A DNA stretch of 55,735 nt from Candidatus Giovannonibacteria bacterium (GTDB lineage Bacteria; Patescibacteriota; Minisyncoccia; JACPKW01; UBA11713). The stretch is taken from contig JACPKW010000007.1 in the NCBI GenBank assembly GCA_016186825.1, positions 1 through 55,735 on the forward strand, in the 5' to 3' direction. The notes below the pieces were generated by a model. That model was not told the DNA's origin. It worked only from the letters and a program-made list of their open reading frames with translations, and did not search any database. This document shows, one piece after another, positions 13,223 to 50,155 of this stretch (position 1 is its first letter; the number at the start of each line of letters is the position of its first letter). Position numbers and translations under genes: made by a program.

Positions 13223-14521
13223 ATGAAGCAATTTTTAAAGCAAATCGTAATTTTAATCCTCGCCTTGCAGGGGAAGTTAATCTTAAAAAAATATAAGCCG
13301 AAAATTGTTGCTATAACAGGGTCGGTTGGAAAAACTTCAGCGAAAGAAGCGATCGCAAAAGTTCTCGAAAGTTCGTTTAAAGTTCGCGCAAGTGAAAAAA
13401 GTTACAACAGTGACTTCGGCGTGCCTTTAACGATAATAGGCGCAAAAAGCGGTTGGGATTCGCCGGTAATGTGGATGAAAGCGATGCTAGAAGGATTTCG
13501 TATATTTTTTACGCGCGTGGATTATCCCGAGGTTCTGGTTTTAGAGGTCGGGGCGGACCGTCCGGGCGATATCAAGCGCATTCGCGGTTGGATGACGCCT
13601 GATGTTGCCGTGGTAACTGCGCTTGCCGCGACGCCTGTCCACATTGAATTTTTTCAAAATCCCGAAGAAGTTTTTGAAGAGAAGGCTGAACTTATTAAAA
13701 ATCTTCCAAAAGATAACTGGGCGGTTTTGAATTTGGACGACCCGAATGTCCGCACAATCAGGGGTAGCACGCAGGCGAATATAAAAAGTTTTGGTTACGG
13801 CGACGGGCTTGAAGCCAGAGGATCCGATTACAAAATTATGCTTCGAAAAGAAGGCGTTCGGACGGTGCCGGAAGGAATTGAATTTAAAGCGATATGCGAA
13901 GGAAGTGAAGTTTCTATAAAAATCGAAGGGGCCTTTGGAAAACATCAAACTTATGCAGCACTCGCGGCTATCGCCGTTGGGTTGGTTTTTAAAATTTCAC
14001 TTGAAGATTCTGCCAGAGCGCTCTCGCTATATGTCGCCCCGCCCGGCAGATTGCGCTTGATTAAGGGGATAAAAAATTCTTGGATTCTCGATGATACTTA
14101 CAATTCTTCGCCGAAAGCCGTTGAGGCTGGGCTCGAAACGCTTTCTGAAATTCCGGCCGAGCGAAAAATTGCGGTTTTAGGCGATATGCTTGAACTTGGA
14201 AAATATACAATTACAGCGCACCGCGAGATTGGGAAAATGCTGGTTGGTAAAGTTGATATGCTTTATGCGGTCGGCCTTCGCGCCAAATTTTTTATCGAGG
14301 GAGCAATCAAGGGAAGATTCAAAAAAAGTGAGATTCTTTCCGCGCCAGATTCAGTGAGCGCGTCGGGAGAGCTCGAGAAGTTAATAAAGCCTGGCGATTT
14401 AATTTTAATAAAAGGGTCGCAAAGTATCCGGATGGAAAAAATTGTCGAGAATATCATGGCGGAGCCGGAACGCGCTTCCGAGCTTCTTTGCAGGCAAGAA
14501 AGAGAGTGGAAAGATAGATAA
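13223..14521 (+). CDS. murF: UDP-N-acetylmuramoyl-tripeptide--D-alanyl-D-alanine ligase
   Basis: AITGSVGKTSAKEAI, ILDDTYNSSPKAVEAGLETL, GDMLELG. Confidence 0.9.
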   Translation: MKQFLKQIVILILALQGKLILKKYKPKIVAITGSVGKTSAKEAIAKVLESSFKVRASEKSYNSDFGVPLTIIGAKSGWDSPVMWMKAMLEGFRIFFTRVDYPEVLVLEVGADRPGDIKRIRGWMTPDVAVVTALAATPVHIEFFQNPEEVFEEKAELIKNLPKDNWAVLNLDDPNVRTIRGSTQANIKSFGYGDGLEARGSDYKIMLRKEGVRTVPEGIEFKAICEGSEVSIKIEGAFGKHQTYAALAAIAVGLVFKISLEDSARALSLYVAPPGRLRLIKGIKNSWILDDTYNSSPKAVEAGLETLSEIPAERKIAVLGDMLELGKYTITAHREIGKMLVGKVDMLYAVGLRAKFFIEGAIKGRFKKSEILSAPDSVSASGELEKLIKPGDLILIKGSQSIRMEKIVENIMAEPERASELLCRQEREWKDR

Positions 14522-14912: not shown

Positions 14913-15027
14913 TTTGAAATTTAAGAGAAAATGCGATAATATTTCATTGTTTTGCCCCTGTCGCCCCGAATGAATTGCAGAGCCAATTCTGACGGGGTAA
15001 ATCTAGCAGGTGATTGATGGTTCCTTG

Positions 15028-15141
15028 CACCGTTAAAAATTTGCTATTGTGCCGCTATCGTCTAGTCCGGTCTAGGACGCATGGTTCTCATCCATGTAAC
15101 CTGGGTTCAAATCCCAGTGGCGGCGCAAATTTTTAACGGTG
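15028..15141 (+). repeat. 17 bp perfect inverted repeat enclosing tRNA-Glu
   Basis: CACCGTTAAAAATTTGC (15028-15044) / GCAAATTTTTAACGGTG (15125-15141); outer TTGATGG (15014-15020) / CCATCAA (15146-15152) extends it. Confidence 0.95.
15051..15125 (+). tRNA. tRNA-Glu (anticodon CUC, 15087-15089)
   Basis: Cloverleaf by eye: acceptor GCCGCTA/TGGCGGC, anticodon arm CATGG-TTCTCAT-CCATG, T-arm CTGGG-TTCAAAT-CCCAG; no encoded CCA. Confidence 0.93.
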
Positions 15142-15154
15142 TTAGCCATCAAAC

Positions 15155-15179
15155 CCGGGTTCGAATCCCGGCGGGGGCG
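15155..15179 (+). other. Orphan tRNA 3' portion: T-arm plus 3' acceptor strand
   Basis: CCGGG-TTCGAAT-CCCGG + CGGGGGC + G; complementary GCCCCTG at 14954-14960 (one G-U). Confidence 0.6.
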
Positions 15180-15181
15180 CT

Positions 15182-15721
15182 ATGAAAAAACGCGGACCGT
15201 GGAAAATTAAAAAAACAAGAGTTGTTTATAAAAATCCTTGGATCACAGTTCGGGAGGATTCTGTTTTGCGTCCAGATGGAAAACCTGGAATTTTCGGAGT
15301 TGTTACGATGCTCCCTGGAGTGTCTGTTATTCCTCTCGACGAAAATGGAAATGTTTATTTAACTAAAGAATTTCATTACGGGGTTGGTCGAACAACTATC
15401 GAAGCTATTAGCGGTGGCATTGAAAAAGGTGAAAATTTATTAAAAACTGCAAAAAGGGAACTCAAAGAGGAAACCGGTCTGACTGCGAAAAAGTGGACTT
15501 ACCTTGGAGTTGTGGATCCCTTTACAACAGTTGTAAATTCATCAAATCATATATACTTGGCGGAGCAATTGAATCATGGAAAATCAAATCCAGAAGGAAC
15601 AGAAAAAATTAAGGTTATAAAAATGCCGTTCAAAAATGGATTGAAGATGGTGTTGGATAGTAAAATAACTCACTGCGCGACATGTGTGGCTATTCTCAAG
15701 ATCGGCAGATTAAGATTTTAA
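15182..15721 (+). CDS. NUDIX hydrolase (ADP-ribose pyrophosphatase-like)
   Basis: Nudix box GGIEKGENLLKTAKRELKEETGL. Confidence 0.92.
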   Translation: MKKRGPWKIKKTRVVYKNPWITVREDSVLRPDGKPGIFGVVTMLPGVSVIPLDENGNVYLTKEFHYGVGRTTIEAISGGIEKGENLLKTAKRELKEETGLTAKKWTYLGVVDPFTTVVNSSNHIYLAEQLNHGKSNPEGTEKIKVIKMPFKNGLKMVLDSKITHCATCVAILKIGRLRF

Positions 15722-18146: not shown

Positions 18147-18824
18147 ATGAAGCTCTTTGGAAAGAAACTAAAACTCGCAATTCTGGATGTGGACGGTACG
18201 ATTCTCGACCTACTAAAAAACTTTGAAGTCAATCTTGTTCAAGCTGCGTCCTTGATGAGATTGCCACTTAAACCTTTCCACGATCACATGCGTGATTTAA
18301 GAAACGGAAAAACATCATTGCATGTTGATTTCGAAAAGGGCGTAAGTTCTTTTTGGCCCCATCTCTCCGGAGAAGAGATTAAAAATTTTGAATCTCTTTT
18401 TCGTGAGGCAGAATGTTCGCAACCTTACCCGCCCATAGAAGGGAGTATTGAAACATTGCTTCGATTCAAAGAGCTTGGAATGTCTGTGGCCGTTTGCACT
18501 TCGAACACCGAAAGCGTCATGCTGAAAAGATTTGAAGCTGCGGGAATTTCTCCAGCTCTTTTTGACGCGATGAGTGTTGCTGGAAATGGATGCCCGATGA
18601 AGCCTAATAAGGGTTGCCTGAATATAATCTTCAAGTCGACGGGATATGCTGCAGATCAAGCCTTTTATGTCGGAGATACTGAAGCTGATTTCCAAACTGC
18701 GAAAAATAACGGCGTTGATTTCTTTGCTGTTTTATCAGGCGGCGTAGGGTGCAAAGTTTTCGAACGTTTGGGAGTCGAGTCGGACAGGATTTTGAACAAA
18801 CTGTCTGATATATTAACGATCTAA
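18147..18824 (+). CDS. HAD-family hydrolase (phosphoglycolate phosphatase-like)
   Basis: LDVDGTILDLL, CTSNTE, KPNKG, YVGDTEADFQTAKNNG. Confidence 0.88.
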   Translation: MKLFGKKLKLAILDVDGTILDLLKNFEVNLVQAASLMRLPLKPFHDHMRDLRNGKTSLHVDFEKGVSSFWPHLSGEEIKNFESLFREAECSQPYPPIEGSIETLLRFKELGMSVAVCTSNTESVMLKRFEAAGISPALFDAMSVAGNGCPMKPNKGCLNIIFKSTGYAADQAFYVGDTEADFQTAKNNGVDFFAVLSGGVGCKVFERLGVESDRILNKLSDILTI

Positions 18825-49483: not shown

Positions 49484-50155
49484 ATGAAGCGTGGCAAGTT
49501 CGGATCAGATCAATATTTTCATATATATAATCGAGGAGTTGAAAAGAGAACGATTTTCAACACAGACGATGATCGCTACCGATTTATGCTGTTATTGATA
49601 TTAATGCAGGCTGATGTGCCGTGTCCTCAAATTGGGCGTCTGCTACCCTCTGTCAAACATCAGATGTTTGACAATGAGATATTCCCCCAAATCATAAATA
49701 AGAGGAGTGTCGAGCTCATTAGCTTTTGTTTGATGCCGAACCATTATCATTTGATTATAAGAGAATTGGCTGAAAATGGCATTTCAAAGTTTATGCAGCG
49801 ACTCTCTGACTCATATACAAAATATTTTAATATTAAATATGACCGTTCAGGGCATTTATTTGGAAGTAAATTTCAGGCCATTAATATTGATAGGAACGAA
49901 TACCTTAATTATTTGTCAGCTTATATACACTTAAATCCTAGAGAACTGAAAGATTATTATCATAAGGAAGTGCGGTACAAATGGTCAAGTTTTCAGGATT
50001 TTGTTTTCGAAAACAGGTGGGGTGCTTTTTTGAACCCATCAATAATATTAGATCAATTCGATGACGGGAATGAATATAAAATTTTTGTTGGGGAAACGCC
50101 AATTAAGGAAATCGCTTCAGAAGTTGAATCGCAATATTTGATCGATTCTTCATGA
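49484..50155 (+). mobile_element. REP-associated tyrosine transposase (RAYT / Y1_Tnp, IS200/IS605-like)
   Basis: SDQYFHIYNRGVEKRTIF, HUH motif MPNHYHLIIRE, DRSGHLFGSKFQAINIDRNEYLNYLSAYIHLNP. Confidence 0.92.
49651..49673. repeat. Perfect 23 nt REP palindrome inside the RAYT ORF
   Basis: TGTCAAACATC-A-GATGTTTGACA. Confidence 0.95.

Follow-up and report, generated by a model that had tools for sequence, protein, structure and literature searches.

Nested tRNA-Glu genes in Candidatus Giovannonibacteria and a recurrent tRNA-within-tRNA layout in Patescibacteria

Organisation of the locus

The stretch of DNA analysed here, referred to as the window, is contig JACPKW010000007.1 (55,735 nt, forward strand) of the Candidatus Giovannonibacteria bacterium assembly GCA_016186825.1, and coordinates without a prefix refer to it. 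Genomes are labelled G, with G000 for the window's own genome, and loci are labelled L. As far as its tRNA genes were found, the G000 genome (756 kb in 7 contigs, 95% complete) has a single good one for each anticodon. No intact tRNA-Glu(CUC) was found in it other than the one in the window (15051-15125, forward strand), which was detected by ARAGORN and Rfam (RF00005, 58.8 bits) as the sole tRNA called there; no permuted tRNA or tmRNA was called in the window by ARAGORN.

This tRNA gene is enclosed by a second, broken tRNA gene of the same strand (14954-15179), located between a gene of a MurF-like Mur ligase (13223-14521, forward strand; PF08245 and PF02875) and a NUDIX gene (15182-15721). 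A promoter-like sequence, TTGAAA-17-TAATAT (14914-14942, forward strand), ends 11 nt upstream of the outer gene; it was found by a consensus scan and is a consensus match only. The same scan revealed no promoter-like sequence between the 5' end of the outer gene and the inner tRNA.

Alignment with the intact tRNA-Glu(CUC) of a relative, G001, divides the outer gene into three exons and two inserts, all on the forward strand. Exon 1 (14954-14963) comprises the acceptor 5' strand GCCCCTG (14954-14960) and TCG, i.e. nucleotides 1-10 of the tRNA, and is identical to the G001 gene in 10/10 positions. Insert 1 (14964-15001, 38 nt) interrupts the D-stem after G10 and consists of the hairpin CCCCG-AAT-GAATTG..CAATTC-TGA-CGGGG (14964-14997) followed by TAAA; similar CCCCG..CGGGG hairpins were seen in the D-loops of other outer tRNAs, e.g. 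L152. Exon 2 (15002-15023, nucleotides 11-34) carries the D-arm remnant TCTAGCAGGTGATT, the anticodon stem strand GATGG and TTC. Insert 2 (15024-15141, 118 nt) follows this TTC in the anticodon loop and is composed of CTTG, a left inverted-repeat arm CACCGTTAAAAATTTGC (15028-15044), the complete tRNA-Glu and a right arm GCAAATTTTTAACGGTG (15125-15141), whose first base, as read from the sequence, is also the discriminator of the inner tRNA. The left arm is a variant of the arm CCCCGTTAGAAAWTT found around the Thr and Leu tRNAs of the same genome. Exon 3 (15142-15179) contains TTAG, the anticodon stem strand CCATC, the variable loop, the T-arm, the acceptor 3' strand CGGGGGC (15172-15178) and the discriminator G; its T-arm and acceptor share 24/25 positions with G001. 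The boundaries of insert 2 can be written as TTC/CTTG-arm..arm/TTAG, and a comparable arrangement, TTC/CTTG-CCCCG..CGGGG/TCA, is readable in L245 and L223.

An earlier inspection of the letters only (the sequence-only reading) had described the complete tRNA-Glu, a perfect 17-bp inverted repeat around it (15028-15044/15125-15141), a further repeat TTGATGG/CCATCAA (15014-15020/15146-15152), an orphan T-arm CCGGG-TTCGAAT-CCCGG (15155-15171) and the two outer acceptor strands, and all of these are present as described. It had also assigned the hairpin at 14964-14997 to the position of a D-arm. The hairpin exists, but it belongs to the separate insert 1, the true D-arm remnant being TCTAGCAGG..GAT at 15002-15016. 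RNA folding of 14940-15185 reproduced the nested fold drawn in that reading (-107.5 kcal/mol, z = -6.9), with 0 of 200 shuffles as stable. Only 2 sites in the window have inverted repeats of at least 15 bp with arms within 150 nt, and 40 shuffled windows contain none.

Identity of the outer tRNA gene

Judged by its ends and by synteny, the outer frame (14954-15179) is the tRNA-Glu(CUC) gene native to the lineage, interrupted twice. Its ends match the intact tRNA-Glu(CUC) of G001 in 34/35 nucleotides, the next best tRNA compared reaching 30/35, while the ends of the inner and outer tRNAs of the window locus agree in 28/35. In G001 this tRNA-Glu(CUC) is located downstream of the same MurF-like gene (tblastx synteny of L032 with the window) and is uninterrupted; G001 therefore shows the empty site. 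A promoter-like sequence TTGAA..TATTAT occurs at the matching position 5' of the G001 orthologue. Thus, among the three readings that had been offered, a tRNA interrupted by another tRNA is the one supported, with an ancestral tRNA-Glu(CUC) carrying two inserts, one of which encloses a whole tRNA-Glu. A decayed tandem array is contradicted, since the 5' half upstream pairs with its own 3' half downstream, and a tRNA-like RNA is weighed below. An orthologue of the window nest was looked for in six further family genomes and not found.

When both inserts are removed, the D-loop of the outer tRNA is 5 nt shorter than in G001 and the joined exons present a Lys anticodon in a Glu body, so the outer gene is unlikely to work as tRNA-Glu. 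With the D-stem hairpin retained, no tRNA was called in the window outer sequence. The outer anticodon stem has G27-C43 in place of the C27-G43 of G001, which is a paired change.

Another assignment of the outer gene was considered and rejected. Joining TT to GTTAG gives the anticodon GUU, and ARAGORN then calls a tRNA-Asn(GUU), which seemed to be missing from G000; however, the outer body matches tRNA-Glu, and a tRNA-Asn does exist in G000. It is interrupted by a group I intron (L108, G000:C2 near 86968-87400; L109 in the relative G002, contig C4; Rfam 89 and 84 bits), which is why standard tRNA finders report none.

The NUDIX gene was of no use for synteny, as it is an accessory gene that other family members lack or match only remotely. 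It has no close family match and shares 76% identity with a NUDIX gene in an unrelated contig (L135), which suggests, as far as sequence comparison goes, that it was acquired recently downstream of the tRNA. Its ATG lies 3 nt past the last base of the outer tRNA (15179-15182), and in G033 a tRNA-Glu (L073) also has the ATG of an ORF within 3 nt downstream. Leaderless mRNAs could arise in such places from RNase cleavage at the tRNA end.

Recurrence of the nested layout

Further nests were found in G000 at about five loci beyond the window: Cys, which is the clearest, Thr and, judged from flanks, Leu, Ala and possibly Pro. At L006 (G000:C4 around 18540-18611) a tRNA-Cys is nested inside an otherwise intact tRNA-Cys, and ARAGORN calls a spurious tRNA-SeC across the boundary between the inner and outer genes.

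For a wider survey the search pattern was two T-arms too close together for two whole tRNAs; other T-arm sequences and spacings are missed by it. The genomes scanned were Patescibacteria only, probably metagenome assemblies for the most part. The pattern matched 74 of 387 genomes of the class, and the same pattern read backwards matched 0/387. A complete tRNA precedes the orphan T-arm in 94 of the 104 distinct matches. A phylum-wide sample gave matches in 43/384 genomes; roughly 36 of these genomes were among the 352 Patescibacteria sampled outside the class. In 69/119 loci a 7-mer lying upstream and followed by T8 can be paired with the acceptor strand of the orphan half at a score of at least 6.5 of 7, compared with a mean of 2.3 and a maximum of 4 for control acceptors borrowed from other loci. 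This pairing indicates that the 5' half upstream and the 3' half downstream are parts of one gene that encloses a complete tRNA. Scores of the flanking repeats alone overlap with chance in about half of the loci; the strong evidence for nesting is the pairing of the outer halves together with the isotype match, not the flanking-repeat score.

The T-stems of the outer tRNAs pair at a mean of 4.66 of 5 positions (4.85 in the inner tRNAs). The anticodon or the entire anticodon arm is missing in L147, L159, L174, L175 and L183, the 5' half is lost in L306, and 3 nt are lost from the outer tRNA-Thr of G000. In two orthologous tRNA-Pro nests (L163 and L164, in G118 and G097) conservation of the outer body and the additional hairpins equals that of the inner tRNA, and the hairpin stems show paired changes. 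This is the strongest sign that an outer tRNA may have some function. A search for orthologues returned only one further copy of the L163 nest, and scattered matches for the L152 nest.

The G120 genome, a single complete contig of 923 kb, has approximately 14 nested chromosomal tRNAs, including three-level nests of Met and Ile(GAU). The same arms and flanking tetranucleotides occur in it without a tRNA at 563568, 603257 and 716414. An intact tRNA cassette at a neutral site was not seen in G120, contrary to what free transposition would produce.

Other features of G120:C1 may be mentioned. About 20 small inverted-repeat elements of a conventional kind, with ATCCCCCCACCTTCCCAG ends, are present (e.g. 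225870-226051 and 900313-900436), one of them inside a nested tRNA-Gln locus. The region 722018-725195, the one long pair of ends examined in this genome, encloses ordinary genes and was rejected as an autonomous element. A dense tRNA array with encoded CCA ends and many duplicated isotypes (439800-442720 and 519291-519987) looks like the tRNA set of a prophage or plasmid.

Isotype and orientation

Because automatic joining at the junctions proved too junction-sensitive for assigning the outer isotype, the tRNAs were classified by their ends, a procedure that was correct for 126 of 150 intact tRNAs. The outer isotype is the same as the inner one in 82/89 loci, while label shuffles gave 10.2 on average and 20 at most. 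The nests represent 17 isotypes. Nesting in the opposite orientation was met in 2/387 genomes, with a pattern covering a narrower geometry, which makes the ratio indicative only.

The inner tRNA matches its own outer tRNA at 22.7 of 31 positions and same-isotype outer tRNAs elsewhere at 21.2 of 31. Being hardly closer to its own outer gene than to others, the inner tRNA is usually not a fresh copy. Acceptor stems of the inner and outer tRNAs are identical in only 4/89 loci. On the other hand, the two bodies are identical in L151, as are the 3' halves in some loci, and gene conversion between outer and inner genes blurs the origin.

Insert boundaries and arms

In intact outer tRNAs the anticodon is the site of the insert, which falls between nucleotides 34/35 or 35/36. 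A tetranucleotide (CTTG, CCCG or CCTG) often opens the insert ahead of the first arm, and the insert stops flush at CGGGG or CGGGA; the window locus conforms to this pattern. Removal of the insert restores tRNA-Cys in G000 and in L146, tRNA-Asp (L180), tRNA-Pro (L173) and tRNA-Arg (L236, L244), and every restored tRNA has the same anticodon as the tRNA inside it. Other inserts are located in D-arms (L152, L170) or T-loops (L151 and the Met locus of G120). A target-site duplication, TTCA, is present in L151 (T-loop); none is clear at the precise anticodon-loop insertions.

One arm family, CCCCGTTAG, flanks six isotypes across genomes, and the Thr arm CCCCGTTAGAAAAT and Leu arm CCCTGTTAGAAATT of G000 resemble its Glu arm CACCGTTAAAAATTT. 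Arms vary, and 51 of 119 loci fit none of the defined families. GTTAGA/TCTAAC, which occurs in one arm family, is similar to attC core sites; this is a lead only.

Possible origin of the nested genes

The explanation preferred for the window locus, with a probability of roughly 0.7, is that a tRNA gene was replaced from within by an inverted-repeat cassette of the same isotype. An ancestral tRNA-Glu(CUC) gene 3' of murF would have been interrupted in its anticodon loop by a CTTG-arm-[tRNA-Glu(CUC)]-arm cassette, and the small hairpin would have entered the outer D-stem separately. The cassette tRNA may come from another lineage and apparently has no promoter of its own, so that it would be transcribed from the promoter of the old gene. 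The arms are predicted to fold into a stem with the inner tRNA held at its tip, from which it could be freed by ordinary end processing, with RNase P at the 5' end and nucleases at the 3' end. The broken outer gene would then no longer be needed and would decay, and the inner one would become the essential gene.

More generally, tRNA genes may receive such cassettes in their hairpin loops, and selection would keep only those insertions by which the lost isotype is restored; these could then no longer be lost. As most tRNA genes here are single-copy, an insertion could be survived only with the same isotype in the same orientation; a ratchet of this kind, in which the insert cannot be lost, would explain why isotypes match, why one orientation prevails and why three-level nests exist. 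It is conceivable, at somewhat less than even odds, that active self-rescuing tRNA cassettes of Patescibacteria target tRNA hairpin loops, destroy the resident gene, install a same-isotype tRNA under its promoter, become essential and in this way drive the stepwise horizontal replacement of the tRNA set, leaving Russian-doll genes behind. Against the cassette model, no transposase is linked to the arms, no target duplication is clear at anticodon-loop sites, and the arms vary.

Alternatively, the inner tRNA might be a local copy of the outer one made by template switching, with the inverted repeat as a by-product and no mobile cassette involved. The nearly constant isotype identity, the identical bodies of L151, the loci with identical 3' halves and the perfect inverted repeats, which are typical of template switching, all agree with this. 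We nevertheless consider it unlikely, because the inner tRNA is typically as unlike its own outer gene as it is unlike outer genes elsewhere, acceptor stems are so rarely identical, the same arms surround different isotypes within one genome and across families, and arms occur without a tRNA elsewhere in G120.

Slightly less probable is an intron model, in which the outer tRNA is spliced as RNA and the inner one is matured from the excised insert, so that both are functional. Several inserts do lie exactly at nucleotides 34/35 or 35/36 and leave a perfect tRNA when removed, outer stems are mostly paired, and the outer tRNAs of L163 and L164 are highly conserved with paired hairpin changes. But many outer tRNAs are irreparable (the seven damaged examples listed above, from L147 to the Thr outer of G000), and the joined outer gene of the window reads a Lys anticodon in a Glu body. 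The archaeal-type tRNA splicing endonuclease (PF01974) was absent from 8/8 nest genomes and detected in 4/4 archaeal controls, and Rfam at gathering score recognised in the two inserts of the window only the inner tRNA.

That the whole 226-nt RNA serves as a functional tRNA-like scaffold, as the first of the earlier readings would have it, appears improbable. It would account for the very stable predicted fold, for the acceptor and T-arm pairing kept in many outer tRNAs and for the paired G27-C43 change in the outer anticodon stem. However, 17 different isotypes occur in this layout and their outer tRNAs are unrelated, meaning that no common RNA is conserved; outer tRNAs bear deletions, and no orthologue of the window nest was found in the six other family genomes. 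Finally, the view of the locus as what is left of a tandem tRNA array after decay, or of the attachment site of an integrative element, which in isolation would also look like a tRNA followed by an orphan T-arm, has hardly any probability left, given the upstream 5' half and its pairing with the orphan 3' half, at this locus and in the 69/119 loci (about 2 by chance), and the syntenic empty site in G001, which refutes it for this locus.

Comparison with known systems

According to a review (PMC4033280), bacterial tRNA genes are structurally uniform except for group I and II introns. A literature search returned no description of tRNA-within-tRNA genes, within a coverage that lacks most subscription papers and preprints, so this absence is not proof of novelty. 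The nested layout suggests that essential tRNA genes are broken and replaced by a route that has not been described. Recurrent tRNA-in-tRNA genes, present in about one-fifth of the genomes sampled from one class of a very large bacterial radiation, would extend the known kinds of disrupted tRNA genes and would show a way for the horizontal swapping of single-copy tRNA genes. They would also mislead tRNA annotation through orphan T-arms and chimeric calls, such as the apparent false tRNA-SeC in G000.

Among known elements, the inserts resemble MITEs in being short, in having no reading frame and in their inverted-repeat ends common to many dispersed sites; terminal inverted repeats of this sort are represented by the 17-bp arms and the CCCCGTTAG-type arms, with the 51/119 loci outside the arm families as exceptions. 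Unlike MITEs, the nests carry a complete tRNA gene, sit in tRNA genes of the same isotype and have neither a consistent target duplication nor a known partner transposase. Phages and conjugative elements that target tRNA genes likewise insert at anticodon or T loops and leave the host supplied with the tRNA concerned. These integrative elements, however, encode an integrase and rebuild the target from a carried fragment, whereas the nests carry a whole independent tRNA in an insert of about 110 nt and the old gene remains broken on both sides. An integrase and a repeated tRNA fragment were not found beside the window site, where the neighbours are the MurF-like and NUDIX genes and the insert has 118 nt.

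Group I introns of bacterial tRNAs interrupt the anticodon loop as well, the tRNA-Asn of G000 being an example. The nest insert differs in its length of about 110 nt, in containing a tRNA and in an outer gene that often cannot be restored; Rfam detected no group I core in the window (only RF00005), while the same library detects the tRNA-Asn intron of this genome. Archaeal genes with BHB introns and split or permuted tRNA genes are similar in being interrupted, sometimes by several inserts, and in having long helices near the anticodon. Nests are distinguished from them by a complete tRNA of the same isotype, a decaying outer gene and a splicing endonuclease family that was not found. Joining the exons gives a proper tRNA in some other loci and not in the window.

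The targeting of hairpin loops, the lack of target duplication and the tetranucleotide next to a hairpin are reminiscent of Y1 (IS200-like) transposases and, by analogy, REP elements with their RAYT enzymes, and Y1 genes occur in the window. One of them, an IS200-like Y1 transposase gene (PF01797), lies at 49484-50155, and G120 has two motif-level Y1 candidates. The repeats flanking these genes, among them the hairpins beside the window gene (TGTCAAACCTCTGATGTTTGACA), are, however, unlike the tRNA arms. Downstream of the window gene lies an inverted repeat of 24 bp without mismatch (50179-50202/50222-50245), which is similar to the upstream flank of the gene. A likeness to integron attC sites is limited to the GTTAGA/TCTAAC motif of the one arm family and, as said, serves as a lead.

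A parallel in logic exists with engineered systems. In home-and-rescue drives the insertion destroys an essential gene and brings its replacement, and in tRNA-scaffold constructs an RNA is placed in the anticodon arm. The nests differ from both in being natural, tRNA-borne and free of any known nuclease, and the analogy is one of logic only; they would be a clear example from nature of an element that both disrupts an essential gene and provides its substitute.
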